64,000 nucleotides of DNA from Sediminispirochaeta smaragdinae DSM 11293 (GTDB taxonomy: Bacteria; Spirochaetota; Spirochaetia; DSM-16054; Sediminispirochaetaceae). Location of the stretch: assembly GCF_000143985.1 (NCBI RefSeq), contig NC_014364.1:4538582-4602581 (forward strand), given 5' to 3'. Of the stretch, positions 24,798 to 49,101 are shown in pieces. The notes beneath the pieces are model-generated. The model did no database searches, had not been told where the DNA came from, and saw only the letters and a list, made by a program, of their open reading frames with translations. Every line of letters begins with the position of its first letter. The stretch's first letter is position 1. Position numbers and translations under genes: made by a program.

Positions 24798-26540
24798 TCA
24801 TTCCCCTTCGAAAGCATCCTTAAATGAAGATATCAGGCTCCCACGAATCCTGCATCCGAATACAAGCTCGGGCCAAGAAAAACCATCGTAGTTGTAATAG
24901 CACAGGGAAGTATAGAGGGAACTCTCCCACCGTTTTCCCACAGGAAAACCGTAGCGGAACGTCAGGGCTGAGGCAATGCTTTGCACATGGTCCGCATCCT
25001 CTATCTCATCGGAAGAGTAATAATTCGTCGAAATAAGGGATGCAAGTTCGTTGTGATCAAGATAGGAAAAGAATAACTCGCTGGAAAGGCCTTGCTTCTC
25101 GCCGACCTTTAAGGTTCCCTCGATCCAGGTGGCACCAGGCCCGTAGGGGCTGGTCAGGGGAATGGCATGAACACCGCTCTGGGTACGGTAACGATAGATG
25201 GCCCTGGCAAAGTAAATTCCATCTTTTCGCTTCTCCGACCAGGCATAGAAGTTTCCCCACAGATAGTGGGTCGTTCCCACCTCGGTAATAAGACCGATCG
25301 GAAGCGTTTTTTTCGAAAGGTTGAGATTTCCTTCCCAATCGGCGCCGAGAAGATAGGCCCCGATGGTCGGAATCGATCCCTTGTCGGGAATACCGATCAG
25401 ATCGGTTGCATTGATATCGTCCCATCCGGCCTGAGCGTACAGATCAAGTCCGGGGGTGACATTCCACAGCGCATCGAAAAGCAGGCTCATATTGTTGCTT
25501 CCCACACTGCCGTTATGCCAGCTGAAGACCGGAAAGATGTCGGCAATGTGCAGGGCATTATTTTCACGGGCAATCAACAGATGTGCGGTCACCCCGAAGG
25601 AGAACTTCGGCAATTCCAGCACAAAGCGGTGCATGGAATTAAGAATGATGGTCCGGGCGAAGGCCGCATCGAGAACCTCCTCTTCGGGACTATCAGTATA
25701 ATCCCACACCAAATTACCATCCTCATCCACGATAAGGTGATCGTCCGTTCCATCGATATCAAGACCACTATCGGCAAAGAAGGCTTCCTCTTCTTTCGAC
25801 TCGCGGTTTTCGAGGGTCCCGAAATAGCTGACCATCCGCAAGGGACCGACTTTATAGCGGTATTCGAAGGCATCCAGGAACGGCAGGCGATCGGAGGGAA
25901 GAAATGACGAAAAGCGGGAGTCTCCATAGTGGACAGGCGACCTGCCAAGACGCAGGGAAAGATGGTCTCCCTCCCAGGCAAAGTATCCCGAAGAGATAAA
26001 GTAGTTCTCCATCTTGACGGGATCATCGGAGGTCCCGGAAATAAGATTGACCTCCGGCATGTTGCCATCTTCATATTCCCGCTGCACAAAGGCGGATATT
26101 TCCATGCCTGAATAGCCGGAAGCGCTTTTCTGCTCCGCAAAGAGGCTGTAATCAAGCATGGCAGGATAGTCAACGAATTCGTTATAAAAAGCGCGATAGG
26201 GATCCCAGGCGTAGGAATCATGGACATTGGCCTCGAAACCGGCATCAAAGTCCTGGCCGTAGATGGCCTCACCCTCTTTCGGAAGCTCCAGCGAGTTAAG
26301 GATCTGTCGTGCTTTTTCCCGGAGGGCAGGGTCGTCGCTATCACGGGAAATCGTCACAGCAAGCTTTCTAAGATCCTCCCCGGAGAGGGGGAAGCCGGAG
26401 ATGGGAAAGGCCCTGCCGTCCAGGGTATAAAGCCGCTGTAGCTCTACAACCTGAGGCGAATCTGTGCCGTAGGTTCTAAAGGCAAAAAGCCGGGAAACGG
26501 AGAAGAAAAAAACAAGCGAAACGAGAAACATCACCTTCAT
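24798..26540 (-). CDS. Outer-membrane β-barrel protein, Wzi-like (capsule assembly)
   Basis: About 580 residues with signal peptide MKVMFLVSLVFFFSVSRLFA. An N-terminal helical part (residues about 25-90) is followed by many amphipathic β-strands typical of large barrels (YSGMEISAFVQREYEDG, HLSLRLGRSPVHYGDSRFSSFL). The barrel pattern and its place downstream of polysaccharide genes resemble Wzi/CapW-type lectin barrels, which hold capsule on the cell surface. Homology was judged by eye only. A reading 24 codons longer is open, but the signal peptide fixes the start. It is the last gene of the locus, before a strong terminator. Confidence 0.6.
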   Translation of the reverse strand: MKVMFLVSLVFFFSVSRLFAFRTYGTDSPQVVELQRLYTLDGRAFPISGFPLSGEDLRKLAVTISRDSDDPALREKARQILNSLELPKEGEAIYGQDFDAGFEANVHDSYAWDPYRAFYNEFVDYPAMLDYSLFAEQKSASGYSGMEISAFVQREYEDGNMPEVNLISGTSDDPVKMENYFISSGYFAWEGDHLSLRLGRSPVHYGDSRFSSFLPSDRLPFLDAFEYRYKVGPLRMVSYFGTLENRESKEEEAFFADSGLDIDGTDDHLIVDEDGNLVWDYTDSPEEEVLDAAFARTIILNSMHRFVLELPKFSFGVTAHLLIARENNALHIADIFPVFSWHNGSVGSNNMSLLFDALWNVTPGLDLYAQAGWDDINATDLIGIPDKGSIPTIGAYLLGADWEGNLNLSKKTLPIGLITEVGTTHYLWGNFYAWSEKRKDGIYFARAIYRYRTQSGVHAIPLTSPYGPGATWIEGTLKVGEKQGLSSELFFSYLDHNELASLISTNYYSSDEIEDADHVQSIASALTFRYGFPVGKRWESSLYTSLCYYNYDGFSWPELVFGCRIRGSLISSFKDAFEGE

Positions 26541-26633
26541 AAAAAAGGCATTGCCAAAATTGTTTTCCCGCCCTATGTTTGCTCTCCTTTGTTTTTGTAC
26601 TGTATAAGGCATGTAGCTTCCTTTTCTAAGATT

Positions 26634-27368
26634 CTAAGACAATCGGGGATAGATACGCGTTTTCGCCCGCTGAAGATGAGACTCGTCGTCGATCTCACCC
26701 CAGACCAGATCCGGAACAAGGTGACAGGCGATCGGCTTTTTCCTGGAAGAGGCAACAAGGGCGGTCTCATATTCGACCTTGAGGCTTTCCGAAAAAAGCC
26801 GTTCCGCCTCGATACAGAGGCGGCTGTAGCCCTCGGGCGAGAGGAGGCTTACCCCCACAAGCTCCCCGCAAGGAGGCCCAGACAACCGCTTTCGCACCTT
26901 GCCCATATCGACAAGATAGCCCTCGGGAGCATAGATCCACACCTCGTCTCCGCTGCCGGTAAATCCCGACATGAGGATGCAATCGGATTCAGGCTGCTCC
27001 TTCAGCGCCGCCAGGGCACGGCTTTCATAGATAAGGTCAGATTCAAGAAGGAAAAAAGCCGCATCACCAAGGGCCTTGCGGGCCTGATAGAGGCTGTACA
27101 TGGAACCGGAATCGGCATAGTCGGGATTATGGACGGTTCCGACAAAACCGCCGGAATCTGCTGCAAGCTTCTCGTAAAAATCGGCCAAATGCCCGGTAAC
27201 GATAACAACCTTTTCAACCCCGGCGGCTTTAAGTCGGTCCAAAGATTCCTGAATAATCGGCTTTTCTCCGATCTGCAGAAACCCCTTAGGCGCTTCAAGG
27301 CCACGTTTTCCGAGGCGGGTGCCCCGGCCGGCGGCAAGAATCACCGCCGTTTTTACTCCCATCGGCAT
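26634..27368 (-). CDS. 2-aminoethylphosphonate cytidylyltransferase-like nucleotidyltransferase (PntC-type)
   Basis: About 245 residues with a sugar-nucleotidyltransferase fold: AVILAAGRGTRLGKRGLEAPKGFL (nucleotide loop, residues about 6-29), VEKVVIVTGHLADFYEKL and an acidic metal site in FFLLESDLIY. In known PntC proteins a domain of this type is often fused to AEP transaminase and makes CMP-AEP. Here the two are separate genes only ten bases apart. The reading frame is open much further upstream but that part is antisense-like, and MPMGVK fits the family start. It probably activates AEP for transfer to a glycan or lipid. A phosphocholine cytidylyltransferase-like role is an alternative. Confidence 0.72.
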   Translation of the reverse strand: MPMGVKTAVILAAGRGTRLGKRGLEAPKGFLQIGEKPIIQESLDRLKAAGVEKVVIVTGHLADFYEKLAADSGGFVGTVHNPDYADSGSMYSLYQARKALGDAAFFLLESDLIYESRALAALKEQPESDCILMSGFTGSGDEVWIYAPEGYLVDMGKVRKRLSGPPCGELVGVSLLSPEGYSRLCIEAERLFSESLKVEYETALVASSRKKPIACHLVPDLVWGEIDDESHLQRAKTRIYPRLS

Positions 27369-27378
27369 CGGAACCGTC

Positions 27379-28479
27379 CTATTTCCGGGAATCCATGAGC
27401 CGCCGGAAAACAGCCAAAAGCCTATCGATGTCCGCATCAAGAAGATCACCCATATTGGCGATGCGGAAAATCGAATGAAAGAGTCCGCCCTGCCCAGCAT
27501 AGATGATGAAGTTCTCTTTTCTCAGCTCATCGTGGAGCTCTTCGTAGCTGTAGCCCTCGGGCAGGTGAAAGCTCGAAAGCATGGAACTGTATTCATCTTC
27601 TTTTAGAAAGCGGCGGATACCCATGGCATCAAGTTCGGCACGAATACGAACCGAAAGCTCCCGGTAACGCTCGTTCCTCGCCTTCCAGCCGCCGGCCTCT
27701 TCGAACTCCTTCAAAGCTTCCTGGAGTGCGACCGCAACATGAGTCGCCTGGGTAAAAGGCGAAAAGCCCTCTTTCTGCTTTTGGTAATAGGCAAAAAGAT
27801 CGAGATACAGGGTGGCAGCGGCGCTCTTGCCCTGTTCCAGAAGATCTTTTCTGACAAGGACGAAATTGAGACCGGGGATACCGTGGATACACTTGTTTGC
27901 CGTGGAAGCAAGGGCGGCAACGTTCCACTTTTCAAGCTCGATTCGTTCACCGCCGAAACTGGAGACCGCATCCAGGAGCATCGGCTTATTGTATGTGACA
28001 CACAAGGCACCAAGGGCATCAAGGTCGTTAAGTCGTCCGGTGGTGGTTTCGTTGTGAATGGCGGAAACATGGGTAATGGAAGGGTCTTCCTTCAAAAGCC
28101 GCTCCGCCTCGGCAAGATTCATCGGCTCGGGCCAGGGACTTTTTACCAGCACCATCTGCTTTCCGTGGGTCTTGACCATAGACGCAATTCGCTCGCCGTA
28201 TACCCCGTTTGAAATCACCAATAATTTACCGTCGGCGGGAAGAAGGCTGGAAATCATCGCCTCAACGGCACAGGTTCCGCTTCCGGTCATCACCAGGGTC
28301 TCGAAATGTTCGCTTCCACCTTCGTAGATCGCAGCAAGCCGTTTCTTGACATCAAGCATCAAAGCGGCAAAATCAGGCTCACGGTGGCACATATCTTCTC
28401 TCTGCAGGCTCTCCCTCACCCGGTCGCTGATGGTTACCGGGCCGGGGTTAAGCAGAATAACAGGTCTCTTTTTCGTCAT
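27379..28479 (-). CDS. phnW: 2-aminoethylphosphonate:pyruvate transaminase
   Basis: 366 residues of the class V PLP aminotransferase family. Visible are LLNPGPVTISDRVRESL at the start, the phosphate-binding turn TGSGTCAVEAMI, ETTTGRLND, LLDAVSSFGGERIE (PLP Asp) and the Schiff-base Lys in STANKCIHGIPGL (about residue 193). PhnW exchanges the amino group between AEP and pyruvate. Here, next to PEP mutase and phosphonopyruvate decarboxylase, it should run towards AEP synthesis rather than breakdown. No phosphonatase (phnX) is present, which supports the biosynthetic direction. Confidence 0.9.
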   Translation of the reverse strand: MTKKRPVILLNPGPVTISDRVRESLQREDMCHREPDFAALMLDVKKRLAAIYEGGSEHFETLVMTGSGTCAVEAMISSLLPADGKLLVISNGVYGERIASMVKTHGKQMVLVKSPWPEPMNLAEAERLLKEDPSITHVSAIHNETTTGRLNDLDALGALCVTYNKPMLLDAVSSFGGERIELEKWNVAALASTANKCIHGIPGLNFVLVRKDLLEQGKSAAATLYLDLFAYYQKQKEGFSPFTQATHVAVALQEALKEFEEAGGWKARNERYRELSVRIRAELDAMGIRRFLKEDEYSSMLSSFHLPEGYSYEELHDELRKENFIIYAGQGGLFHSIFRIANMGDLLDADIDRLLAVFRRLMDSRK

Positions 28480-28507
28480 ATGCTCATTTCTCCTTCGCTA
28501 TCGCGCA

Positions 28508-29653
28508 TTATCGGTTTTGTAAGAAAGCGGCAAAGCGCTTTGAAAGCTCTTCCGGCCGCTGTGTAGGTCTGGGCAGGTCTTCCGGACTGCCGGGAATCGT
28601 CCGGGCCCTGATAAAGGTGATGCCGGAAAGATCCTTTTGGGACAATAGGTCCCGAAGCTCTTCCGGACTCCTGGTTTCAAAAACATTACGGTAACCACAG
28701 GCGGCGGCTACGGCACAGAGATCAACGGAAGCGGAAACGGTGGCCTGACCGCCGGTAGATTCGTGCATGCCGTTGTCGAGGACGATATGCACAAGGTTTT
28801 CGGGACGCTGATAACCGTTGGTCGCAAGGGCTCCCATACGCATGAGTATCGCTCCGTCGCCGTCCACGGCAATAACCCTTCCCGATCGTACCGTGGAGAT
28901 ACCGAGGCCGATGCTCGAAACACAGCCCATGGAACCTGCCATATAAAAATTGCCTGATCGGTCATTAAGTGCATAAAGCTCTCGTCCGGTATAACCGGTG
29001 GTCCCGAGAAGCGGTACATCATCGCCGGCGGCATCGAGAATAGCCTTGAGCATGTCGCTGCGACTTGCGTTCGCATCTGTCTCGAAGAAGGCACCACCAC
29101 GCCGGCTAACCTTTGGGACACGAATTTCCATGCTGCTTTTCAGCGCCTTCTTTGCCACCGATCCCTTTCGCATCACCAAAGCGTAGGGAAGAGAGGTGCC
29201 GTCCATGGAGGCAATGGCGCGATCAAGGACCTCACCCACTTTTGCTTCCTCGTCAGGAAAGTACTCCCATGGGATCTGCATCACATCAAGCATGGCGGTG
29301 GTTATCGGCCCCATGAGACCGTGCTGTACCGCATCGGGCGGAGCCCCAGGCTCTCCCCGGAGGGTAACGATCAGCAAGACCGGAATACGATAGGTATTGT
29401 TCAAGCTGGTCAGCGGATTTACCGCATTCCCCAGCCCGGAGTTCTGGAACATGGCCACACCCCGAATTCCTGCAAGATGGCTTCCGGAAGCAATGGCAAC
29501 GGCATCCCCCTCGTTGACCGCCGGGATATAGCGAACGGAAGGATCATCGATAACATGGTTGATAAAGGGTTTCAGGTAAGAGCAGGGTACCCCGCTCCAA
29601 AGGCCAAAACCCCGCTCTAAAGCCTGGCGCACAAAAAGTTCGGCTTCAATCAT
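28508..29653 (-). CDS. Phosphonopyruvate decarboxylase
   Basis: 381 residues, thiamine-diphosphate dependent. The pyrimidine-binding part has VPAVNEGDAVAIASGSHLAG (catalytic Glu near residue 45). The diphosphate-binding part has the GDG motif in IAVDGDGAILMRMGALATNG and LDNGMHESTGGQAT (Mg site). It is shorter than pyruvate decarboxylase because the middle domain is missing, as in known Ppd/AepY/Fom2 enzymes. It turns phosphonopyruvate into phosphonoacetaldehyde and CO2, pulling the unfavourable mutase step forward. It is 28 bases upstream of phnW and 15 bases downstream of the mutase gene. Confidence 0.92.
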   Translation of the reverse strand: MIEAELFVRQALERGFGLWSGVPCSYLKPFINHVIDDPSVRYIPAVNEGDAVAIASGSHLAGIRGVAMFQNSGLGNAVNPLTSLNNTYRIPVLLIVTLRGEPGAPPDAVQHGLMGPITTAMLDVMQIPWEYFPDEEAKVGEVLDRAIASMDGTSLPYALVMRKGSVAKKALKSSMEIRVPKVSRRGGAFFETDANASRSDMLKAILDAAGDDVPLLGTTGYTGRELYALNDRSGNFYMAGSMGCVSSIGLGISTVRSGRVIAVDGDGAILMRMGALATNGYQRPENLVHIVLDNGMHESTGGQATVSASVDLCAVAAACGYRNVFETRSPEELRDLLSQKDLSGITFIRARTIPGSPEDLPRPTQRPEELSKRFAAFLQNR

Positions 29654-29668
29654 TACAGCCCTCCGGTG

Positions 29669-31291
29669 TTAGAAGAGGTTTCCGGCAAGCACGACATCTT
29701 CCAGCGTGTCGATATCGAGCCAGTAACCAGTCGTATAGATAACCCTCACACGCTCGCCGTTGGCAACCAAAGCGTTGAGCAGATCACTCATCCGCGCATC
29801 CGGATTTGCCGCCGTGAGGCTCTCGACAAGCTTGTCAAGGAGAAGGCGGTGATCGGATGAGACCTTAAGAAACCCGGTCCACTCGCCGTGGGTCCTCTTT
29901 TCAGGCAGATGTTCACTCATCTCGGTCAATGAAATTTCCTGGCCGAAGGCATCGCGGCCGTAGGGGCGGCTGCACTGAACATAGTCGGCAAACCTGCCCT
30001 TATTGACACTTTCACTCCAGTTGGTATCCACCACGATGGAAAAATCGGCATGACTTTCGAGCAGTAGCTGGAGGATATGCTTTTTGAAAAGGACATCCCC
30101 GTAGGAAACGACCAACTCTTTGCCGGCATCTTCCGAGGCAAGGGACTTGAGGGCACAGGAAAGGCTGGCAAGCTCTCCGGTGCTCTCAAAGTTGTCGTTA
30201 TCCGCATAATCGATATTGGAAAGATTGACCGTCTCTTTTGCATAGCCCCTGACAACGGTGATATCCTTCACGCCGACGGAATTGTAACCGTCCACCACAT
30301 GGGCAAGAAGGGGCTGGCCGGAGACCGGTACCATTGCCTTAGGCCGTTTTTCGGTAAGTTCACCAAGCTCCTTACCGCGACTGGCGGCAAGGATCACGGC
30401 CCGGACCGCCTTTCCCCGTTTGGGAAGATAGCGCTTTTCGGCCTCCTGCAGCTCCGCAGCACCCTGAAGGCGAAATATTTCCTTTACCGGAGCGATGGAA
30501 TCCTCTATGGCCATGAGAGACTCTTCGGCCATAAGGGTAGCCGCATTCTTCTGCATCGAGGCAATGGCCGTTCGTATCATGTGGTTTGCCCAGATAGCGA
30601 TGGAAATGCCGGCCTCTCTGAACTGATCCGTAGGGGTAGCATAGTATTTTGTCGGAACGATGACCACCGGAAGCCGGTCGCCCCACTCCTTTTTGAAAGC
30701 AAGGATCTCGTCGGGTACCGACAGAGCACTGTGCATGAGAATGGCATCTGCTCCGGCCTTCCGATAGGCTTCTGCCCGGCGCATCGCCTCCTTCAGCCCC
30801 CAGCCCGCAATAAAGGCCTCGACCCGTGCAACAATGGAAAAATCATCGTCGCCCTGGGCATCCTTTCCGGCCTTAATCTTACCGCAGAACTCCTCAATGT
30901 CGGCCAGAGGCTGGGCAGTCCCTTTAATGAAACTATTGGTCTTGGGAAAAAGCTTATCCTCGATACAGACCGCGGCAATATCACGCTGTTCGAGCTTACG
31001 CACCAGCCGCTGCATATTGTTGAAGTTACCGTAACCGGTGTCACCATCAAGCAAAATGGGTATCGTGGTGGCATCCGACATAAACTCAAGCATGTCCAGG
31101 ACCTGAGTCCAGCTTGCTTCGTTGTTATCCCGTACCCCGTACTGAGCCGAAAGAGAAAGACCGCTTCCCCAGATCCCCTTGAAACCGGCCTCTTCGACGA
31201 TCTTCGCGCTGATACCGTTGTGCGCCTCAAGAATAAACTCAAGCCGATCTGAATTCAGCAAATTCCGAAATTGTGTGGTTTTCCTTGTCAT
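29669..31291 (-). CDS. Phosphoenolpyruvate phosphomutase fused to a nucleotidyltransferase domain
   Basis: About 540 residues. Residues 1-290 form a PEP mutase/isocitrate-lyase barrel: [30 protein letters not shown] (metal site) and the diagnostic loop [11 protein letters not shown] (111-121), which separates the mutase from lyases. Residues from about 299 form a nucleotidyltransferase domain ([44 protein letters not shown]). The mutase makes the C-P bond by converting PEP to phosphonopyruvate. The fused domain resembles those found in other bacterial Ppm proteins but departs from the usual GxGxR loop. I start at MTRKTTQF; a TTG ten codons earlier is possible. Confidence 0.92.
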
Positions 31292-31368: not shown

Positions 31369-32784
31369 TTATCTCCCTCGAAACAAGACCAGAAACGTTT
31401 TTAGAATAATCTTAAGATCAAGCCATATCGACCAGTGATCGATATACCAGGTATCAAGTTTAACGATCTCCTCGAAATCGGAAATATCGTTACGCCCACT
31501 CACCTGCCAAAGGCCAGTCAAACCGGGTTTCACACTGAGCCGTCGACGATGGTAATTTTTGTAGGAGCCGAACTCCTCTACCGTTGGCGGCCGAGTCCCA
31601 ACAAGAGACATATCACCGCGTAGAATATTGATGAACTGCGGCCATTCATCAAGGCTTGTTTTACGCAGGAAATTTCCCAAGGGGGTTATCCTCGGATCAT
31701 GTTTCATTTTGAAAATTTGGCCTTGCATCTCGTTTTTATCTAGTAGCGACCTCTTCTGCTCTTCCGCATCGAGACACATGGTCCGAAATTTAAGAAGCAC
31801 GAAATTTCTACCGTTCTTTCCTTTCCTTACTTGCCTGAAAAGTATGGGTCCGGGACTAGTCAACTTAATCAGAGGCGCAATAACAATAAAAAGCAATGAA
31901 CATATAAGAGTTCCGATAATACCGCTGCTGATATCGGTAAGTCTCTTTACCAAACGTTGAACCGGAGAATAGTCGAAGGTCTGGAACGTGATAATATTGA
32001 ATGGTCCGACAACATCAACCTCACTTTTGCGAAACTCAATGTTGGAGGTATTCAGAACAACGTTGACCGATATTCCCATTCGGCCGCATTCGGTAACGAG
32101 CGAACTTATGGAGGCAAGGTTCAAATCAGAATAGGCAAAGATTACCTCGTCGACCACATTGTTCCAGATAAAATCAAGAATTGCTTCGGACAGTTCCTCT
32201 TGCTCCTTCTCGTTTAGAACGACATCTGCGTTGATAATGAAATCCGATTGTGTGACAATGTCGAACAACAGCTCCGGCATCTGCCTTTCAGTGGAAAGGA
32301 AGTAATCGACAGACCGTCTATTACCAACCAACAAAGCCCGGCGATGGTACTTTTTTATCTTTCCTTCCCGCAGAAAATAGGCCATGGTTAATATCTTGGT
32401 CGTCAGAAGCATAAGATAATTAATGGCCGCAAAAAAGAGCAGAAAGGTTCTACTGATGATTTGATCCCGAAGGAAAAAAAGGATCATGGTAAGAAGAGCA
32501 AGTCCAACCAATTCCACCGGCAGCAAATTGACAAAAATCCTACGCCACGATTTCTTTCCTCCTCCGAGAAAGGCATAATTATTGAAGAAGCGAAGGAGCA
32601 GCAACCAAAAAACAAGTGAAATGAGAAGATAAGGGAAATAGTTCGAAAAGGGAAACAGGGCCTTAAGACCGAAAAAAAACGGTGTGTTGCGGACATAGTA
32701 AGCAACTATGAAAGAAAAAAAGGTCACGATACCGTCTATGGCCATAAGAGCATTACGGACAAAAACCCTGCGTCTACGATTCAT
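31369..32784 (-). CDS. Polyprenyl-phosphate sugar-1-phosphate transferase (WbaP-type initiating enzyme)
   Basis: 471 residues. Four N-terminal hydrophobic segments, a Rossmann-like cytoplasmic middle ([15 protein letters not shown]), a fifth re-entrant helix and the catalytic domain with [41 protein letters not shown] and [15 protein letters not shown]. These are the hallmarks of the large monotopic phosphoglycosyltransferases that put the first sugar phosphate on undecaprenyl phosphate at the inner membrane. A second enzyme of this class is encoded at 38440, so two repeat units or alternative primers may be made. The donor (UDP-Gal, UDP-Glc or other) cannot be read from sequence. Confidence 0.88.
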
Positions 32785-35635: not shown

Positions 35636-37270
35636 CTACTTGAGCCGCCAGGAATAATTGAATCCGACGGTGACCCCGAAAATCGGAAAATTGTTTCCAT
35701 TCTGCGGTACATAGATCTTCGGTTCAGTCCAATAGATCGTGTCATAATCTTCATAGTTTGCATCAACCTCGATCAGTTCTGCACCATTGATGACATAGCC
35801 GGCCTGCACCTCCATCAGTACGGTAAAGTCGCCGATAGGCTTACGGGCGTTCGCCTTTGCCCTGAAGATATACTCGATAGGGGCACCGGTGAACATGCAC
35901 CAGGCAGAATCCTCGATATCCGAATTGCGCGGGCTATCGTATTCATGCCAGGGGTTGGAGGGAGACTTGGATCCGTTCATCACATACTCGAAAGAGGTAT
36001 ATAGCTTAAATTCCTGAGGGGTGCCGGCAAACATCAGATTTTCGTAATCGACAAGAAACGCAAGGTTGTTTTCCCCGTATTTGTATCCGGCGTAGAGGTC
36101 CTCGTAGGGAATGGCCATCTGGTCTCCGTTCTTCAGGGAGTATTCGTTTACCGGATAGTAGGTATACTCGTAGGGAAGAATGCTGTAAGGAACATCCACG
36201 TATCCGACATCTCCCCAGCTATCGTCGCTTTCAATGGTCCGGGTCGATTCAAAGGTGTATTTGGTGGCACCTGCATGGTGGAAACCCATGGTACCGAAAC
36301 TGAAGTCCTTCCATCCCCCTATATTCCAGGCAATCTTGTCCTTGAAGCTGCGGTCGGGCACAAAGGGAAGAAAACTTAGGTTTATATCGTCAATCAGAAG
36401 CTGGGTCTCCGCCCCCCAATCATCGCGGGTTACATCGACAAAAAAGCCCATCATGCTCTTGGTGTTCCCGGCCTGTACCCAGGGATTCCCGTCCTCGGTG
36501 GTGATCAGCTGGAGAAAATACTGCGGAATGGGATTGAAAAAATAGTTGGCATCGAAGGAGCGGCCAAGATAGACCACCACATCCTCGAATCCGACCCGCC
36601 ACCCTTCGCCGAGGTTGAAACCGTAGACCTTGAAGTTCATTCCCTTGTCGAGCCAGTAGGTCTCACCGACATCTTCATTTCCGTTTGGCCACACAGCAGT
36701 ATTATCAATCTCATCCGTTCCATAATAGATCTGCGAACTGTCGTTGTTCATGCTGACCCAGCGGGTCTTGTAAAAGAAGAAATCTCCGTCGTAGTCGATC
36801 TCGGCATGAAGCACGGAAAAATCATTCGAGGAGATAAAGAGGCTATAGGGGGTATCAACCACATCGTGGTGAGGCCCCTGACCAACCTTGAGCTGAAACC
36901 GATTAAGCTCGGTTTTGAGATAGGCATCATTGAGGTAGAAGTATCTTCCCCCCAGATAGGGCTCCTGTTCGCTGTACGTTCCGTCATCGAGTAGCGATCC
37001 GTCGATGAACATCTGAAATAACTGGGTACGATAATCGAAACTGAGACGCTCTTCATCGAAGAAGTTCGGAAGATCAGCTTGATCATCCAAAAGTTCCTCT
37101 CGCGTCTCCGCCGTGAGAAAACCGGCGAAGTTAAAGGCCAGGTATTCTTCTCCCGGAGGGGGAAGCCAATCCTCATCCTCTCCCATCATGGAAAAATCCA
37201 TCGCTCCAATTGAGGGCAGGAGAATCAAGCAGAAAAAAATCGCACATAGGGCACTGAAATATTTCTTCAT
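35636..37270 (-). CDS. Outer-membrane β-barrel protein (Wzi-like, tentative)
   Basis: About 544 residues with signal peptide MKKYFSALCAIFFCLILLPSIGA. The mature part is rich in aromatic and acidic residues and alternating β-strand pattern (AEIDYDGDFFFYKTRWVSM, RFQLKVGQGPHHDVVDTPYSLFI), ending in FGVTVGFNYSWRLK. It is of the size and style of the other two barrels in this locus. A role in export or surface retention of the glycan is inferred from position only. A start seven codons earlier is open, but the signal peptide fixes this one. Confidence 0.6.
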   Translation of the reverse strand: MKKYFSALCAIFFCLILLPSIGAMDFSMMGEDEDWLPPPGEEYLAFNFAGFLTAETREELLDDQADLPNFFDEERLSFDYRTQLFQMFIDGSLLDDGTYSEQEPYLGGRYFYLNDAYLKTELNRFQLKVGQGPHHDVVDTPYSLFISSNDFSVLHAEIDYDGDFFFYKTRWVSMNNDSSQIYYGTDEIDNTAVWPNGNEDVGETYWLDKGMNFKVYGFNLGEGWRVGFEDVVVYLGRSFDANYFFNPIPQYFLQLITTEDGNPWVQAGNTKSMMGFFVDVTRDDWGAETQLLIDDINLSFLPFVPDRSFKDKIAWNIGGWKDFSFGTMGFHHAGATKYTFESTRTIESDDSWGDVGYVDVPYSILPYEYTYYPVNEYSLKNGDQMAIPYEDLYAGYKYGENNLAFLVDYENLMFAGTPQEFKLYTSFEYVMNGSKSPSNPWHEYDSPRNSDIEDSAWCMFTGAPIEYIFRAKANARKPIGDFTVLMEVQAGYVINGAELIEVDANYEDYDTIYWTEPKIYVPQNGNNFPIFGVTVGFNYSWRLK

Positions 37271-37329
37271 GTCATTATTCCTTATCGGCATCTTATCGTA
37301 TGGCAGGCCATTTCACAAGAGAAAACGGA

Positions 37330-38439: not shown

Positions 38440-39846
38440 CTAATAGGCATTCCTGTCGATAACACTTTTGAAAGGGGTAAGCAGAATAATCTTTAGATCG
38501 AGCAGAATCGACCAGTTCTCAATGTAATAGATATCGGCGGCTACCCGTTCCTCGATGGAGGTATCGCCGCGAAGGCCGTTGACTTGAGCCCATCCGGTGA
38601 TACCGGCCTTCATGCCGTGACGCTGCATGTATCCGGTATAGCGCTCTTTAAATTGTTCGACCCAATAGGGGCGCTCCGGTCTGGGGCCGACGACCGACAT
38701 CGTTCCTGTAAATACGTTAAAAAACTGCGGGGTTTCGTCAAGGGACAATTTTCGCAAGATTCGACCGACAGGTGTTACTCGGGGATCGTTCTTGGTAGTC
38801 CAGATGATATCGGAATCCCCCGGCTGCTGCACAGACATGGTACGAAATTTCAGTACCTTGAATAACTTGTTGTCGAGTCCGACCCGCTCCTGTGAAAGGA
38901 AGACAGGTCCTTTCGATGTAAGTTTGATCGCCAGAGCAATAAGAATATAAAAGGGAGAAAAAAGGATGATAAACAACAGGGAAAAGATAATATCGAACAA
39001 ACGCTTAAAAAAACGATTAAAGCCCCTTCGAGCAGGGATATCGCGCAAAGTGATGAGAGGGATTCCTTCAAGGCTCTCAAGCCGGCCCTTTGAAGTAATC
39101 AATTCGCTGAAACTGGGTATCACATGCATATGGATTCCTTCATGATTGCACATCTGTATTGCCCCTTGGAGCATATCACTGCTGGTGGAATCACATGCAA
39201 AGATAACGTGATGAGGCCTGATTTCGGTTAGGAGTCGGGGAAGATCCTCAAACGAACCAAGAATCTTATCACTTTCGACCTTAACTTCTCCCTCTTCAGG
39301 GAGGCGGACAAAGGCTTTGACCAGATAGCCGTAAAGCCGGTTTCGTTGAATCACCTCTTCGAACTGCTTTGCGGTTCTGCCGGTGCCAAGAACCAGGATA
39401 AGACGTATACGCCGACCTTTCAAGAGCATTTTCTTAATAAAGAATCTGGCAATTGCCCTACCGAGGGAAACAAAAGCGACATTCAGAATTCCGAAATAGA
39501 GTACGACCAGACGGCTATATCGATGGGTCTTGAGAAAGAAAATAACCCCCAGCGCCATGAAGATGGTGACGATTGTCCCCAGCACTACCCGATTAAACTC
39601 ATCAGTTACTAAGCCAATCTTCCCCGGACGATACAAATCCATAAAATAGAAGACCATCACCTGCGAAGAGGCAAGGACCAGGCCTATATACATATATTCC
39701 CGAAGATCGATGGCATAGAACTCGAATAGATTTGCTTCCTGAATGATAAAACGAACGGCAACTGCGGCACAAAAGGCGAGGATGGTCGATAGGGTATCGA
39801 CCACCACAAAAAGCAGCATGTAGGTCTCATTTCTTTCTCGAAACAT
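38440..39846 (-). CDS. Second polyprenyl-phosphate sugar-1-phosphate transferase (WcaJ/WbaP-like)
   Basis: 468 residues, with the same architecture as the enzyme at 31369: four membrane helices, a Rossmann-like domain (IRLILVLGTGRTAKQFEEVI) and a catalytic domain with FKVLKFRTMSVQQPGD, RKLSLDETPQFFNVFTGTMSVVGPRPERP and KAGITGWAQVNGLRGDT. The DETPQ and GWAQVNG forms are typical of the WcaJ-like group that uses UDP-glucose. It starts synthesis of a lipid-linked repeat. It overlaps the upstream CDP-alcohol phosphotransferase-like gene by 20 bases. Confidence 0.9.
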   Translation of the reverse strand: MFRERNETYMLLFVVVDTLSTILAFCAAVAVRFIIQEANLFEFYAIDLREYMYIGLVLASSQVMVFYFMDLYRPGKIGLVTDEFNRVVLGTIVTIFMALGVIFFLKTHRYSRLVVLYFGILNVAFVSLGRAIARFFIKKMLLKGRRIRLILVLGTGRTAKQFEEVIQRNRLYGYLVKAFVRLPEEGEVKVESDKILGSFEDLPRLLTEIRPHHVIFACDSTSSDMLQGAIQMCNHEGIHMHVIPSFSELITSKGRLESLEGIPLITLRDIPARRGFNRFFKRLFDIIFSLLFIILFSPFYILIALAIKLTSKGPVFLSQERVGLDNKLFKVLKFRTMSVQQPGDSDIIWTTKNDPRVTPVGRILRKLSLDETPQFFNVFTGTMSVVGPRPERPYWVEQFKERYTGYMQRHGMKAGITGWAQVNGLRGDTSIEERVAADIYYIENWSILLDLKIILLTPFKSVIDRNAY

Positions 39847-40555
39847 GCTCTACCTTCCGAATCAATTTAAGGAGGACCAGTACGCATCCCAACCCATAGA
39901 AAACCGTATAGAAAATCATAACATATCCCAGCCCTCCGGCAAGAAGGGCCACAAAAAGCGCTGGCATCAACACCCCGGTGACACCCAGATTTTCACTCAG
40001 GAGCTTTTCCAAACCGATTGATTTTTTTGCTTCCGCCTTTCCTTCAGGAGCAATATTTCGGTAGCTTTGGAAGGCAAGCCGCATCAGGATATTAGAAGCT
40101 GCAGCTACTCCCCCAAGTAATACCCAGACATTACCGTCGGGCTCCCACGCGAAAAAAAGCGCGTTTCGAACGGCAGCAGCATAGCCGAGGCTTAACAAGA
40201 CCGTAACATAGGCCACATATCCGCCGATTGCATCGGCCCATGCACCATAGGGTCCGGTAGTACCGGTGGCTCGCGCCATGTTTCCATCGGCACAATCAAG
40301 AACAGCAAACATATTAAAAAGAAGAGCCCCAATAATCGCCCCCCCCAGAGAAGCCGATCCAAACAGAAGGGCGGCAAACACACAAATAAGGGCAGAAAGA
40401 TACGAAACAGTATTGGCTCGTAGCCCCCAACGTAGACAAAGCCAGGCAACAGGTACCGAAAGCGGCCTAAGAATATAACGAGTCCAAAGAGAATCGGCAC
40501 GGTTCTTTTCTTCCGGGAGCGAATCTCTGATCTCTTTCATTGAAATATGGGTCAT
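39827..40555 (-). CDS. CDP-alcohol phosphotransferase-family membrane protein with a changed catalytic motif
   Basis: 242 residues with about six transmembrane helices. The family motif DxxDGxxAR...GxxxDxxxD is present as LDCADGNMARATGTTGPYGAWADAIGG: Asp87, Asp90, Gly91, Arg95, Gly104 and Asp108 are kept, but the last Asp (proposed catalytic base) is Gly112. Family members move a phospho-alcohol from a CDP carrier to an acceptor. With a CMP-AEP pathway in the same locus, it is the best candidate for transferring AEP or a related head group to a lipid or glycan, unless it is inactive. It is the only such gene here and is coupled to the WcaJ-like gene. Confidence 0.78.
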   Translation of the reverse strand: MTHISMKEIRDSLPEEKNRADSLWTRYILRPLSVPVAWLCLRWGLRANTVSYLSALICVFAALLFGSASLGGAIIGALLFNMFAVLDCADGNMARATGTTGPYGAWADAIGGYVAYVTVLLSLGYAAAVRNALFFAWEPDGNVWVLLGGVAAASNILMRLAFQSYRNIAPEGKAEAKKSIGLEKLLSENLGVTGVLMPALFVALLAGGLGYVMIFYTVFYGLGCVLVLLKLIRKVEHVSRKK

Positions 40556-40560
40556 GAAAA

Positions 40561-41640
40561 TTACCCCTCCCCGGATACTATATCTTGGAGTATGATTTCA
40601 AATCGATCATCAAGTCTTTGCAGCTGATCATGATAGGCAGTATAGCTGTTTTGAGCAATACGTCGACAAAAGGTATCATCCGTCAGTATTGCATCTACTT
40701 TTTCCAACAGGTCTTTTGCATCCCAGGCAAACGGGACATAGGTTTCACCATCAACAAATATATCGGGCCAGGTCTCCAAATGATTCATATCAGGTTTTAG
40801 CAACACCGCACCGGAAAGAACCGCTTCGAAGTCCCGAAAACAGAGCTCACCCCAGCCGAAGGGGGAGAGGACTATTCGGGACCTGGACAATTCGTGATTG
40901 TATTGGCGCTGCCCCACCTCTCCTGTGAGAAAACGAGGATCCCCCTCTATCTTTTGCAAAATAAGTCGGCGCTGCTCCGCAAGGCTGGGTTGCTTTACCA
41001 ATCCCAGGCGTGCGTGCACATCGATATCACGGGCCTTAGAAAAAAGCTTGGAAAAAGCGACACGGCGGACAGGGGAATGAAAGGCTCTTACAAGCTTGAG
41101 ATCCACCAGACGTGCTATGGCCACGGCAAAACGTTGTCGATACTTTCTCTTGGGAAACTGACCGATACCGATATTCCACGAAAGCCTTAGTTTCTTTAAT
41201 TGTTCGGTATCTTCTACCGCCGCCCTTGTTATCGGGTTCGGATCATCAACACCGTGCTCACGATGGAAATAGTCGGAGTACAGTTCCTTTCCGTAGAGAG
41301 AATGCTGGTATAGAGAACGATCCCGGAATAATGCCTTCTGATAAAAGCGGTCTACATAGGGCAACACCTGTGCACGGGGTATCCCTCCCCCGGCATCATC
41401 GTGAAAAAAAATGATGCGATCATACTTATCACGAAGGCGGCGCATCACCTCCATATCGACCCGATCGGGTTTAAGAAACCAGCGAACCATAACGAGAATC
41501 CGATTACGATCACGCTGCAAGCAAAAATCGACGGAATTGGTGTAATCGAAGAGGGCTTGATCATGATAGAGAAGGAAAGGCCGTAAGGTGTGAAAGCAGG
41601 CAATACGATCATAGATAGAAAGCACGGTAATATTAGCCAT
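40561..41640 (-). CDS. Putative glycosyltransferase of an unnamed family (paralogue of the gene at 55901)
   Basis: 359 residues without membrane segments. The C-terminal half has LSPFGWGELCFRDFEAVLSG, KPDMNHLETWPDIFVDGETYVPF, which resembles the donor-binding region of GT-B/exostosin-like enzymes ('PFGWGE..FRdfEa...G...lkp'). The middle has KLRLSWNIGIGQFPKRKYRQR. Both blocks are shared with the protein at 55901. It probably adds a sugar or reads a sugar-nucleotide, but I know of no named family. It is six bases upstream of the CDP-alcohol phosphotransferase-like gene, so they are probably used together. Confidence 0.6.
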   Translation of the reverse strand: MANITVLSIYDRIACFHTLRPFLLYHDQALFDYTNSVDFCLQRDRNRILVMVRWFLKPDRVDMEVMRRLRDKYDRIIFFHDDAGGGIPRAQVLPYVDRFYQKALFRDRSLYQHSLYGKELYSDYFHREHGVDDPNPITRAAVEDTEQLKKLRLSWNIGIGQFPKRKYRQRFAVAIARLVDLKLVRAFHSPVRRVAFSKLFSKARDIDVHARLGLVKQPSLAEQRRLILQKIEGDPRFLTGEVGQRQYNHELSRSRIVLSPFGWGELCFRDFEAVLSGAVLLKPDMNHLETWPDIFVDGETYVPFAWDAKDLLEKVDAILTDDTFCRRIAQNSYTAYHDQLQRLDDRFEIILQDIVSGEG

Positions 41641-43965: not shown

Positions 43966-44926
43966 GTTCCGCTCGAAATAGGGGAAGCCATCTTTGCAAT
44001 AGATGGTATATCGTACGCGCATCAAATGCAGACAAAAGTGTCAGCAAAGGATATAGCGATAATGATTTTCTCCAGAATTCGAATCCACCCTTCACACCCT
44101 CTTTTGCCAGCAAAATTGCGATACTAGATCTGATACGATAATAGAGCATCTTATTTTTCCAATACATTCTTTTGATTCGCGAATAATAATTATGTTCTTC
44201 CAAATATCGATAAACGGTCATTACATAGCTGATGTTTTCCAAGCGGGTATCCACATCCTGAACTCTGCTTGCATTATCCCCATGACTTCTCCACATGCCA
44301 ACTATCTTCGGAATATATACAACATTATGCCCGGGAAGTAAGCGTAAAAGAGATTCCAAATCGGAACTGATAATATCAGAACAATAAAAATCTATAGAAA
44401 CCGCTAGTTTCCGGTCATAAAGAGCCGTTAAATGATTTAGTTGATAATGCTTCTTCCAATAAGTAAGAAGAATTTCCTCCCCAGACAAAATCTTAAAATC
44501 AGTTTTAGAAAGCGTCCTTTTATACGATGATGGCTGATCAGGTTTTATGATTCCTTTATCAGCATAGATTATGGAAACATTTCTAGTTTTCATAGCTATC
44601 CTCATCGCATGCGAGAAATAATGGCACTCGGTAAGAATATCATCGCCATCGATGTTAATAACCCAATCTCCGTGTGTTCGTTCGTACAAGGTTTTCTTGT
44701 AGTTCTCAGTACTCCCAATAGTAATATTATTCTTATAGTACCTGACACGAGGATCATCGAGGAACGGTTTTATCTTTTCAAATGTGCCATCGGTAGAGCA
44801 ATCATCCGATATGATTACCTCAATATTCTCATAATCCTGCCTCAATATTCCATCCACGGCCTGAGCGATAAAGTGTTCCTGATTATACGTCGGAATCATT
44901 ACCGATATGAGCATATTATCATTTTT
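43952..44926 (-). CDS. GT2-family glycosyltransferase
   Basis: About 324 residues, GT-A fold: ISVMIPTYNQEHFIAQAVDGIL, VIISDDCSTDGTFEKIK and WVINIDGDDILTECHYF (DxD metal site), followed by a helical C-terminal region. It is an inverting transferase for surface-glycan assembly. MKNDNMLIS is the likely start, eight bases inside the end of the flippase gene, so it is translationally coupled. Confidence 0.88.
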   Translation of the reverse strand, partial: KNDNMLISVMIPTYNQEHFIAQAVDGILRQDYENIEVIISDDCSTDGTFEKIKPFLDDPRVRYYKNNITIGSTENYKKTLYERTHGDWVINIDGDDILTECHYFSHAMRIAMKTRNVSIIYADKGIIKPDQPSSYKRTLSKTDFKILSGEEILLTYWKKHYQLNHLTALYDRKLAVSIDFYCSDIISSDLESLLRLLPGHNVVYIPKIVGMWRSHGDNASRVQDVDTRLENISYVMTVYRYLEEHNYYSRIKRMYWKNKMLYYRIRSSIAILLAKEGVKGGFEFWRKSLSLYPLLTLLSAFDARTIYHLLQRWLPLFRAEHEEI

Positions 44927-46229
44927 CATTACTGTTGGAACTCTTTTGCTGAACAATGATTAATTTTATCGCAATTGTCATAAACGACTGTAGGCCCAAA
45001 GCAATGGTAATGCCCAAAAGGCCGTACTGGGAGCCTAAAAACCAAGCGACCACCAAATACAAGCAATTTGCAATGCAGGTAATCCAGAACCTATGCTGTA
45101 TAAGGCCCATTGCTGTAACCAAAGGATCAAGGGCCGTAAAAGAAACTCCTATCATACGAATAAAAACATACATACTTAGAACATACCAGTAGTGAATAAA
45201 ATTTTTACTAAACAAATAGGCCAGAATATTTTTGGATAAAAAAGTAAATACTATCACAGGAACAATGGAAGTGCTGAATATTATAATAACAATCTTGAAG
45301 AAACTATGGATAGCCTTTTTTAACTTTCCATCCGCGATCAACTTTGCCAATTCGGGATAGATCGCCTGATATATCGGATTAACAAATTTCGAAAGGATTT
45401 GAGATATCTTCTTAAATAAATCGTATACAGCAAGAGCTTCTTTGGATATCAGTTTTGCTACAAGAATTTTATCGAATTCTTTCACGGGCAAGGCAATGGT
45501 GGTATTGAGATTACTCCAGATAGAAAACAGAAGGAATTGCTTGCTCTTCTTTATGGAGCCATACATCCAGTCCTCCAGCCCCTCGGCCTTCAACGTATAC
45601 AACGAGAAAGCAACCAACAATAAATTACCGAACACTTCAATGGCCAAAACCGCAAGCGTGTAGTTATAAAGATTGATTCCTTTTATCAGCAAAAGTAACA
45701 GTACTATTACTTTTGTTATCGACATTGCAATTTTTTGTACGGAAATCAACGAAAAGCGGTTAAAAAGCCGTAATATGCCGATTGGCGTACCGTAAATGTG
45801 AGAAATAATAAAGAGCGAATAGATCGTGGCTAAACGTTGCGTTGTGCCATCCCAACGGAACCACCTACCGGCGAATTTCACTAACAAGAGGGCACAAAGA
45901 AGGCCTAATACAGCACTGGCAATATCAAGCAAGAAACCTAACTTGATATATTTTTTTAGTTCGGATTGATTATTTTCCGAAATTGCATCAGATCCATATT
46001 TTATAAGTGCTTGCCAGGATTGAAAATTCAGTAATCCATCAATCGAAAGAATATAGGTCTGAATCAGGATAAAGGATCCATACGCAAGGGCCCCTAGGGA
46101 TTTCATCGCTATGGTCATGGAGATAATCCCAAAGAGCGAGGCAACAACATTACCCGATATTAAAACGGATACATTTTTTATTAATCGCTTAAAAAATGTA
46201 TCGCTGAACCATTTTTTGATCATAGTCAT
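44919..46229 (-). CDS. Wzx-type lipid-linked oligosaccharide flippase
   Basis: 436 residues with 12-14 hydrophobic segments in the pattern of polysaccharide transporters of the MATE/MOP group: NVSVLISGNVVASLFGIISM at the start, PVKEFDKILVAKLISKEALAVYDLFKKIS in the middle and ending in QYGLLGITIALGLQSFM. It moves the finished undecaprenyl-linked repeat across the inner membrane. Together with the two initiating transferases it points to Wzx/Wzy-dependent export. It lies between the GT2 gene and the Wzi-like barrel. Confidence 0.87.
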   Translation of the reverse strand: MTMIKKWFSDTFFKRLIKNVSVLISGNVVASLFGIISMTIAMKSLGALAYGSFILIQTYILSIDGLLNFQSWQALIKYGSDAISENNQSELKKYIKLGFLLDIASAVLGLLCALLLVKFAGRWFRWDGTTQRLATIYSLFIISHIYGTPIGILRLFNRFSLISVQKIAMSITKVIVLLLLLIKGINLYNYTLAVLAIEVFGNLLLVAFSLYTLKAEGLEDWMYGSIKKSKQFLLFSIWSNLNTTIALPVKEFDKILVAKLISKEALAVYDLFKKISQILSKFVNPIYQAIYPELAKLIADGKLKKAIHSFFKIVIIIFSTSIVPVIVFTFLSKNILAYLFSKNFIHYWYVLSMYVFIRMIGVSFTALDPLVTAMGLIQHRFWITCIANCLYLVVAWFLGSQYGLLGITIALGLQSFMTIAIKLIIVQQKSSNSNEK

Positions 46230-46239: not shown

Positions 46240-47646
46240 TCAGAAATTCCATTCTGCCGAAATCAGAAGACCAAAGGAATCTTTCAATGATCCAAAATCA
46301 TACCCCAAGCCTATTCGACCGGATAGATAGCCATAATTAAACAAACTCTTACGCTCCAATTCGAAATAGGTATGTATGAGATATTCTTCCCTGTCATACA
46401 AGCTTACAAGATTATTGTCAGCATCAAGAACATATGCCGGATAATAGCGGGCAAAAGAACAGAGCGCGGTATATTCAAGAAGGGCTGCGATGCTCCCATG
46501 TATTCCCACATGATGGATCTTCATACGGTTGTTGGCAATTTTTAGATCTTCATCAGACCCAATAGTAGAAAAGAAGCTGTTTCCAATCACCGAATTGAGG
46601 TGGGTCCAACCATTCTGATAAAACCAGTTGTCGTAGTAACGATCAAAACCGCCTAAGATTTCATCACCAATATTATGAACATCACCACTTTGGTCAGTAG
46701 TTTGTACATACTCATATAGGAACGTATCAACATAAGGAAAGGGCAGATGTTCGATCGAAAGCCCCCATAGGCCATCAATTCCATTCTGAAAGAATTTCAA
46801 TCCGCTACGATCTTCAAAAAAGTGCTGGTAATAGGCGTGCAGGTCAAGACCTGCGATCTCGCCATAAATTCCGAAATCCCAGATACCGAGATGATTGCCC
46901 AACCTATTGAGCTGTTCATTTGTAGGGGCATCGTCGCCCCCTTCGTCTGCGAAAAAGATACGCCAGAAATTCTCCCAGGTGATACCGCCGTCTTCTCCTA
47001 TATCATTTGAACCACCCCACATGGCTTCATGAACCAAGCCGACATAGGGTGAAATTCCAAAGGGAAGATTTACCTTCCCGTAAAAAGCCTTTTCATGCAG
47101 CAAAATACCGTCCGTATAACGGTCTCCCTGAAACCAACCATGGGAGATTAATCCCTTTACCTCAAGGATATTGCGTGTAAAGGGAACAGGAACATAGTCG
47201 AAAAAACCGGCACTTATGCGTGGTATTGGTGATGCATGTTCGCTTACCACCATTGAACCAGTGGAAAGAGGTTCATACACGTCGCCCAAGGTTTGCCTTT
47301 TTTTTCCGGCATACACCGAAAAGCCGTAGAGGTTGAACTGGTAGTATAATTCTTCGATCGATATACTCGAAGATTCAGATACATTAGTCGCGACATCAAA
47401 ACCGTAGATGAAGCTGATTATGTCGTTTATTGTAAAAAGTTGAGCAAATGAGATGTCTATTACATCCTGTATATCCGTATCTTCGGTTGTACCCCAGCTA
47501 TTGGCAGTAAGCCAATGGGGAAGATCATCGTCCGATCCCCAAAGAAAGCTATTTTCAATTTGTATCGTTGCAGGCAAGATTTCTGCAAAAGAAAACAGGG
47601 GATGAAAAAAAACAAGGCATATCAATATACATATTATTCTCCGCAT
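46240..47646 (-). CDS. Wzi-family outer-membrane capsule assembly protein
   Basis: 468 residues with a signal peptide (MRRIICILICLVFFHPLFSFA). The best-supported Wzi-like protein of the window: LHAYYQHFFEDRSGLKFFQNGIDGLWG (about 275-301) matches the family's 'YxxxxFED.SG...n..DGlwG' region, and YAGKKRQTLGDVYEPLSTGS matches the early barrel strands. Wzi is a β-barrel lectin that anchors capsule or exopolysaccharide on the outer surface. It lies between the flippase and rfbD with short gaps, so it belongs to the same operon. Confidence 0.75.
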   Translation of the reverse strand: MRRIICILICLVFFHPLFSFAEILPATIQIENSFLWGSDDDLPHWLTANSWGTTEDTDIQDVIDISFAQLFTINDIISFIYGFDVATNVSESSSISIEELYYQFNLYGFSVYAGKKRQTLGDVYEPLSTGSMVVSEHASPIPRISAGFFDYVPVPFTRNILEVKGLISHGWFQGDRYTDGILLHEKAFYGKVNLPFGISPYVGLVHEAMWGGSNDIGEDGGITWENFWRIFFADEGGDDAPTNEQLNRLGNHLGIWDFGIYGEIAGLDLHAYYQHFFEDRSGLKFFQNGIDGLWGLSIEHLPFPYVDTFLYEYVQTTDQSGDVHNIGDEILGGFDRYYDNWFYQNGWTHLNSVIGNSFFSTIGSDEDLKIANNRMKIHHVGIHGSIAALLEYTALCSFARYYPAYVLDADNNLVSLYDREEYLIHTYFELERKSLFNYGYLSGRIGLGYDFGSLKDSFGLLISAEWNF

Positions 47647-47665: not shown

Positions 47666-48547
47666 CTAATGTTGTTCGTTTATCATGCTCATGAACTCAC
47701 CAAGGCTCTCTTGCCATGGTTTTGTCTTTATACCGAAAGCCGCTTCAGTTGCAACCGTCGATAATACAGACCATTTTGGTCGTTTCGCCCGAGAAGCAAA
47801 TTCATCGCTGGTGCAAGGTTCGATTAAAACTCGTTTTTTTTGGATACCCAATTCTTGCGCTAAACGGGCAATTTCCAAACTGAATTCATACCAACTAGCT
47901 TGCCCTCCCCCACAAAAATGGTATACCCCATAGTTATCGGAATTCCTTTCGATTATTTCGACAAGGAATTCGGCCATTACACGGCTCCAAGTCGGGCAGC
48001 CAATTTGATCCCGGACAACTTTGACCATGCTGCGTTCTTTGAATAGCTGCAGCATACTGAATACAAAATTCTTTCCCCACGTACCATAGAGCCAGGCTGT
48101 ACGAATTATAAAGGCACGTCGAGTTGCCTTCTTTATTGCAAACTCCCCAGCCAATTTGGTCCGGCCGTACACACACTCAGGAGCAGTAGGATCACGTTCC
48201 TCCAGCGGCCTGTCAATCGAATCCCCTGTAGAACCAAATACGTAATCGGTTGAGACGTGAATAATCCTCGCACCGATTTCTTCAGCTGCCATTCCTAAAT
48301 AGCGAGGTCCTAAAACGTTCAATTTTTCCGCAGCCTCAGGTTCATCTTCAGCCTTATCTACAGCGGTGTAGCCCACACAATTAATAATCCAATCAATGCT
48401 ATTTTGTCGTGCTACAAATTTTTTTACGACCTCACTATCAGTGATATCAACTTCAATATCGGTACCGATACATTGCAGCTGCTTCCTTTCCAGAACATCA
48501 GAAACCTCCCGACCAAGTAACCCCTTGCATCCAACTAACCATATCAT
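47666..48547 (-). CDS. rfbD: dTDP-4-dehydrorhamnose reductase
   Basis: 293 residues of the extended SDR type: N-terminal MIWLVGCKGLLGREVSDVLE (NAD(P) loop), DWIINCVGYTAVDKAEDEPE, IIHVSTDYVFGS, ECVYGRTKLAGE (catalytic YxxxK, about 128-132) and RTAWLYGTWGKNFV. It makes dTDP-L-rhamnose in the last step of the pathway. Its start overlaps the epimerase stop by four bases (ATGA). The first two genes of the pathway (rfbA, rfbB) are not in the window. Confidence 0.92.
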   Translation of the reverse strand: MIWLVGCKGLLGREVSDVLERKQLQCIGTDIEVDITDSEVVKKFVARQNSIDWIINCVGYTAVDKAEDEPEAAEKLNVLGPRYLGMAAEEIGARIIHVSTDYVFGSTGDSIDRPLEERDPTAPECVYGRTKLAGEFAIKKATRRAFIIRTAWLYGTWGKNFVFSMLQLFKERSMVKVVRDQIGCPTWSRVMAEFLVEIIERNSDNYGVYHFCGGGQASWYEFSLEIARLAQELGIQKKRVLIEPCTSDEFASRAKRPKWSVLSTVATEAAFGIKTKPWQESLGEFMSMINEQH

Positions 48548-49101
48548 ACGTATGGTTCTTCCAAGTCGCTAAGCCATGGGAGCCCTCTATCTTTTTCCGA
48601 AATCAAAACTTCGTCTTCACTAATAGGCCACTTAATACCTATGTCAGGATCGTTCCACCGTATCCCTCCGTCGCTTTCTGGAGCGTATTCAGCAGTTACT
48701 TTATAGACCGACTCTGCGGTATCGCTTAATACAGCGAAACCATGAGCAAAGCCTGGCGGCAAAAAAAACATGAGCCTGTTCTCTGCAGAAAGTTCCAGGC
48801 CATACCATTGTTTATAGGTAGGAGACCCAACCCGCAAATCAACGGCAACATCCCACACCACCCCAGCGACACAGCGGACCAACTTGCCCTGACTATAAGG
48901 GTTCTTCTGAAGATGTAGTCCTCGGATTACGTTTTTTCGTGATCGACTGTGATTATCTTGCACAAATATCTCATGAATACCGGCCGTCTGAAATGCAGAT
49001 GCTTTATACGTTTCCATGAAAAATCCCCGCTCATCCACAAAGGCATGTGGTTTTACAACGACAAGCCCTTCAATGGCCAACCTTTTGAATTCAAACGGCA
49101 T
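48544..49101 (-). CDS. rfbC: dTDP-4-dehydrorhamnose 3,5-epimerase
   Basis: 185 residues, cupin fold: GLVVVKPHAFVDERGFFMETY, FVQDNHSRSRKNVIRGLHLQKNPYSQGKLVRC (catalytic His in GLHLQ, about residue 63) and MFFLPPGFAHGFAVLSDTAESVYKVT (His/Tyr site). It epimerises C3 and C5 of dTDP-4-keto-6-deoxyglucose. Coupled to rfbD by a four-base overlap. Confidence 0.93.
   Translation of the reverse strand: MPFEFKRLAIEGLVVVKPHAFVDERGFFMETYKASAFQTAGIHEIFVQDNHSRSRKNVIRGLHLQKNPYSQGKLVRCVAGVVWDVAVDLRVGSPTYKQWYGLELSAENRLMFFLPPGFAHGFAVLSDTAESVYKVTAEYAPESDGGIRWNDPDIGIKWPISEDEVLISEKDRGLPWLSDLEEPYV

Follow-up and report, generated by a model that had tools for sequence, protein, structure and literature searches.

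The 64,000-nucleotide stretch analysed here (the window, G000:C1:4538582-4602581) raises the question of what a compact set of phosphonate genes makes within a polysaccharide locus and where its product goes. The organism, the free-living marine spirochaete Sediminispirochaeta smaragdinae (formerly Spirochaeta) SEBR 4228T, is an anaerobe and obligate halophile that comes from oil-field water (PMC3035371), and its genome is a single 4,653,970-base contig, to which the genome-wide statements below refer. Within positions 26634–31291 of the window, the minus strand carries four genes, in the order PEP mutase (29669–31291), phosphonopyruvate decarboxylase (Ppd, 28508–29653), 2-aminoethylphosphonate (AEP) transaminase (AEPT, 27379–28479), and phosphonate cytidylyltransferase (PntC, 26634–27362). 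The gaps are 15 bp (mutase–Ppd), 28 bp (Ppd–AEPT), and 16 bp (AEPT–PntC, counted with the ATG at 27362 as the pntC start), and a further 21 bp separate pntC from a predicted outer-membrane barrel-type gene downstream (24798–26612, minus strand). The original prediction, four AEP genes in order with gaps of 10–30 bases and enzymes with clear motifs, agrees with what we found: the genes are 15–28 bp apart, the catalytic residues are intact, and three of the enzymes exceed NCBIfam equivalog cut-offs. With a probability of about 0.7, we consider that this is a horizontally spread pnt cassette in a capsule locus, in which CMP-AEP is made by the standalone PntC and decorates a glycan, while the mutase carries a second nucleotidyltransferase (NT) domain, fused to it, that is probably not a source of CMP-AEP.

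The PEP mutase (PepM/Ppm) frame encodes 540–550 amino acids, a TTG-started version reaching 31321, and matches TIGR02320 at 385 bits (cut-off 320), PF13714 (6.5e-58), and PF12804 (3.6e-14). The M. edulis PEP mutase (1m1b/1pym) is closest to the mutase domain (E 2e-128). The protein has the EDKXXXXXNS motif and conserves the catalytic columns ([11 protein letters not shown]58-type Asp, DxD, Glu, Arg, and His); D58, which is Ala in the D58A structure 1s2u, is found in it. In an alignment of 93 homologues there is no or almost no variation at DxD, EDK, Arg, and His, and the mutase shows no loss of active-site residues. Ppd matches TIGR03297 at 405 bits (cut-off 312) and carries the TPP motif GDG...N (GDGA...DN) at residue 265 and NEGDA at residue 47. 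AEPT matches TIGR03301 at 381 bits (cut-off 361), with the PLP lysine in STANKC at residue 192 and DAVSSF at residue 170; it falls below the cut-off of the narrower TIGR02326 PhnW model (303 vs 401). A catabolic role for AEPT was rejected, since no PhnJ (C-P lyase) was found genome-wide and the best PhnX (phosphonatase) score in the genome is 43 bits against a cut-off of 220; the missing breakdown genes, first noticed in the window, are therefore missing from the whole genome.

The standalone PntC shows 42% identity (98/236) to the assayed Treponema denticola enzyme, Tde-PntC, and keeps R15, K25, E104, K153, and E196, which are all five of the tested or AEP-contacting residues of that enzyme, within a complete GxG(T/S)R..PK signature. 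In Tde-PntC, the R15A, K25A, and K153A substitutions leave less than 10% of activity, and Glu104 and Glu196 are placed to bind the amine of AEP (PMC6697681). The score is also far better against Tde-PntC (6pd1, E 3e-45) than against LicC (4e-13). A search of the plasmid collection returned no PntC relative at E 1e-20. The mutase domain would thus form phosphonopyruvate, which Ppd would decarboxylate and AEPT would convert to 2-aminoethylphosphonate, and, judging from families and conserved catalytic residues, the standalone PntC would join AEP and CTP into CMP-AEP, a step for which the biochemical proof comes from PntC relatives. Residue conservation, gene context, and the missing catabolic genes give good support to CMP-AEP, the product named in the original prediction, as the likely activated product of the cassette.

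The C-terminal part of the mutase frame (29669–30412, minus strand), where the PF12804 match lies, had been overlooked. In an AlphaFold2 model of the fusion (pLDDT 87, 38 sequences in the alignment), residues 294–540 adopt a PntC/GlmU-type fold, and Tde-PntC (6pd2; Z 28.1, 227 residues, rmsd 2.2, 19% identity) is the closest among the nucleotidyltransferases listed for this domain. The GxG(T/S)R signature is lost: the region reads [18 protein letters not shown] / LAASRGKEL...PK, with the YGD and W-D-I-D Asp motifs retained. We compared 93 fusions from Spirochaetota, Nitrospirota, Pseudomonadota, Planctomycetota, Gemmatimonadota, Verrucomicrobiota, and Cyanobacteriota, a sample of relatives at roughly 34–98% identity to the window fusion and not of all published fusions. 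At the position of the signature Arg, the residue is Glu, Ala, Asp, Lys, Ser, or Gly and in no case Arg (0/93), and the PK Lys (92/93), the YGD Asp (93/93), and the first W-D-I-D Asp (92/93) are kept; a regular-expression test found an intact signature in none of 80 fused domains. A canonical NT lies within 6 kb in 20 of the 22 clusters having Ppd and AEPT and in 0 of 58 other fusion loci. The fusions of Burkholderia arboris and Mycetohabitans have lost the second Asp motif as well as the Arg signature and have a separate nucleotidyltransferase alongside, which in Mycetohabitans reads LAAGRGLRL. A literature search, with subscription journals mostly outside its reach, found no paper on the signature of the fused domain.

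From the signature loss and the separate canonical NT, we infer that CMP-AEP comes from the standalone enzyme and that the fused domain serves a different purpose; this conserved, signature-less PntC-fold domain probably does not make CMP-AEP. A degenerate signature is not proof of lost catalysis, as the PK Lys and the YGD Asp are still there. Both NT units could be active, the fused one using another phosphonate (e.g., phosphonopyruvate, phosphonoacetaldehyde, or hydroxyethylphosphonate), so that the surface bears more than AEP. The strong conservation of the domain with its own signature and these two residues fits such an activity, as do the 51 of 51 Nitrospirota loci that have the fusion without AEPT or PntC matches, but we regard it as unlikely: the Arg whose mutation cuts Tde-PntC activity to below 10% is missing throughout the aligned homologues, the second Asp motif has also gone in the Burkholderia and Mycetohabitans fusions, and the position matching the AEP-contacting Glu104, aligned by motif, is Tyr or Phe. 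For a fused domain that does not make CMP-AEP, one speculative role is that it may bind a nucleotide or CMP-phosphonate and thereby regulate or scaffold the mutase. A more specific proposal is tentative and, to us, somewhat doubtful: that the widespread fused domain in this lineage acts as a pseudo-nucleotidyltransferase that senses nucleotide or CMP-phosphonate and controls the committing step of phosphonate synthesis, and that AEP reaches the S. smaragdinae glycan by way of a class of transferase distinct from LicD.

The TIGR02320 cut-off is exceeded in 65 of 393 genomes of the phylum. In the 30 strongest loci, all of them inspected, the frame ends shortly past the mutase, and nearly all have an N-terminal extension, which is PF01467 in both of the two loci scanned against Pfam; one of these two has an NTP_transferase domain at its N-terminus as well. 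The window-type fusion with its C-terminal extension occurs in eight further fetched loci. At one locus (L168, 9003–11027), a single 675-residue frame is a triple fusion of NTP_transferase, CTP_transf_like, and PEP mutase. The Nitrospirota loci (L038, L041–L045, and others), 51 of 51 with the mutase–NT fusion, have no AEPT match, no PntC match, and no strong Ppd match. The same four-gene order is found in other spirochaetes, Gammaproteobacteria, Gemmatimonadota (Gemmatimonadales), a planctomycete (Planctomycetota), and Calothrix (Cyanobacteriota), five phyla in all, and in a quick tree the spirochaetes do not form one clade, which together are consistent with horizontal spread. The sporadic distribution, and the different fusion architecture of most inspected phylum members, would also suit a cassette that is silent or decaying and yields no product; we hold this to be very unlikely, because all four frames are open, the catalytic residues are intact, and the genus's other genome has kept the cassette, with proteins 96–99% identical.

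The surroundings bear on the destination of the product. The capsule locus spans about 24.8 to 63.6 kb and contains two sugar-phosphate transferases and many glycosyltransferases. Upstream of the cassette, on the minus strand, lie a first polyprenyl-phosphate glycosyl-1-phosphate transferase (31369–32784; TIGR03025 375 bits, cut-off 296; PF02397 1e-66), a second predicted outer-membrane barrel-type gene (35636–37291), a second polyprenyl-phosphate glycosyl-1-phosphate transferase of WcaJ type (38440–39846; TIGR03023 459 bits, cut-off 411), and a CDP-alcohol phosphatidyltransferase homologue (39827–40555). The remaining capsule and exopolysaccharide genes, taken together without regard to strand, occupy 40561–63605 and include Wzx (44919–46229), Wzi (46240–47646), dTDP-rhamnose genes (47666–51136), and a UDP-sugar dehydrogenase (60336–61685). 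Two proteins of this part (40561–41640, with a weak Glyco_trans_1_2 match, and 55901–56974, with no significant Pfam match) look like paralogues by eye. The cassette had been placed between a Wzi-like barrel and an initiating sugar transferase, of which the transferase stands, as the TIGR03025 match, and the likeness to Wzi does not: the 24798 gene has no Pfam match, PF14052 (Wzi) included, at a threshold as loose as E<=1, and neither the 24798 nor the 35636 protein had a BLASTP match to the true Wzi or to the other barrel protein. The genuine PF14052 gene is the one at 46240–47646.

The GC content of the cassette is 0.53–0.56, and the other window ORFs tested average 0.447 (sd 0.046). As an argument for insertion this is suggestive only, since one of those ORFs, for a glycosyltransferase, has a value as high as 0.546. 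Homologue pairs of the two barrel genes adjoin or lie within about 4 kb of each other in five other spirochaete genomes (G331, G371, G025, G358, and G288), none of which is among the mutase-positive genomes. The GC-rich cassette sits between barrels that are neighbours in genomes without a mutase match, which suggests that it entered a pre-existing capsule locus. The barrel genes themselves were rejected as phosphonate-specific, as homologues occur in genomes without a mutase match. In another spirochaete (G387; L181, 2–10250), a different mutase with Ppd and AEPT lies beside both barrel homologues, the CDP-alcohol gene, a glycosyltransferase, and a sugar-phosphate transferase. The comparison of gene neighbourhoods in related spirochaetes that had been proposed as a check yields both phosphonate genes in a similar locus and, in other spirochaetes, the same gene order. 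That loci of this type hold two different sets of phosphonate genes supports coupling to the glycan.

The attachment step is where the route breaks off. A complete path to a decorated glycan had been implied, and the CMP-AEP transferase proves to be a gap: LicD (PF04991) has no match in the S. smaragdinae genome, unlike the clusters of two other genomes (G008 and G010) in which it is present, so LicD is rejected as the attaching enzyme, and the acceptor could instead be a lipid or a protein. An EptA-like sulfatase-fold transferase was also set aside, as the genome has two PF00884 genes, neither near the locus. Of the alternatives originally allowed, a glycan or a phosphonolipid, the surface-glycan destination is well supported by context, with the LicD step missing from it.

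The three PF01066 genes of the genome comprise two canonical ones outside the locus, probably housekeeping, and the 39827–40555 gene, which exceeds the PF01066 cut-off (27 vs 22 bits) but departs from D-x2-DG-x2-AR-x8-G-x3-D-x3-D in having Gly for the fourth Asp, a loss common to all related sequences checked. This spirochaete subfamily (the window gene and L148–L160) reads DCxDGNxAR...G...DA..G and is kept beside a glycosyltransferase (the 40561 homologue) in several genomes. Clear homologues occur in 14 genomes, 6 of them without a mutase match, several times inside the conserved glycosyltransferase module, and for this reason the gene is not favoured as a dedicated CMP-AEP transferase. We considered whether a CDP-alcohol phosphotransferase, from the locus or housekeeping, could move CMP-AEP onto diacylglycerol to give a phosphonolipid. 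The lack of LicD and the PF01066 gene in the locus leave room for this, a PF01066 gene lies close to the PepM–NT/Ppd/AEPT/NT set in Mycetohabitans (L214), Burkholderia arboris (L213), and Calothrix (L109), with a canonical motif in the first and last, and the CDP-alcohol gene and the mutase co-occur in the phylum more often than expected (p 0.006, genus excluded). We nevertheless find it quite improbable, given the missing fourth Asp in all checked members of the locus subfamily, its presence in six genomes without a mutase match, its glycosyltransferase setting, the confounding of the co-occurrence by one family, and the position of the other two genes elsewhere. Read from its annotation, the Mycetohabitans locus (L214, 4570–11897) is a probable phosphonolipid cluster, with a canonical CDP-alcohol phosphatidyltransferase, a 2OG-Fe(II) oxygenase, an LPG-synthase-domain protein, a separate cytidylyltransferase, the mutase fusion, Ppd, and AEPT; the B. 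arboris locus (L213), seen by tblastn only, is similar.

Between these possibilities, we favour, on sequence and gene context, the reading that the cassette supplies CMP-AEP to decorate the surface. CMP-AEP would most likely be passed to the glycan of the surrounding genes by a transferase other than LicD. The CMP-AEP transferase is a gap in the field at large, and with this locus the decoration of a capsule with phosphonates can be tested in a marine spirochaete that has a name and grows in culture. An NT domain fused to the mutase had counted as evidence of nucleotidyl activation, and this published inference is narrowed, as in the sampled lineage the fused signature is lost while a separate canonical enzyme goes with the AEP genes.

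Phosphonate surface chemistry in a spirochaete, at first put forward as new, has a precedent in T. denticola, where PntC has been characterised biochemically and structurally and whole-cell 31P NMR gives shifts consistent with phosphonates (PMC6697681). Its pnt cluster (Tde1415 PntC-AEPT; Rice et al. 2019, PMC6697681; PDB 6PD1/6PD2) shares with ours a Ppm with a fused NT domain and a separate PntC, the AEP route, and a surface-linked prediction, but Tde1415 fuses PntC to AEPT, whereas S. smaragdinae has separate genes. The common spirochaete mutase carries an N-terminal PF01467 domain and the window mutase a C-terminal PF12804 domain. The LicA-LicC-LicD phosphocholine pathway is similar in that a phospho(no)-amine is activated with CTP before it is passed to a surface glycan, and differs in that the residues and score of the window PntC point to AEP and that S. 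smaragdinae has no LicD. For the AEP-bearing capsular polysaccharide of Bacteroides fragilis, as cited in PMC6697681, the chemistry has been shown, whereas AEP on the capsule is only predicted here. The marine capsule-locus phosphonate clusters of Prochlorococcus SB and SAR11 likewise adjoin an initiating sugar transferase and a flippase; they belong to other taxa, and their authors propose a phosphonylated glycoprotein (PMC8931226). Set against these systems, the cassette is a new member of the known pnt kind, of interest chiefly for the conserved, signature-less domain on its mutase and for the transferase step.
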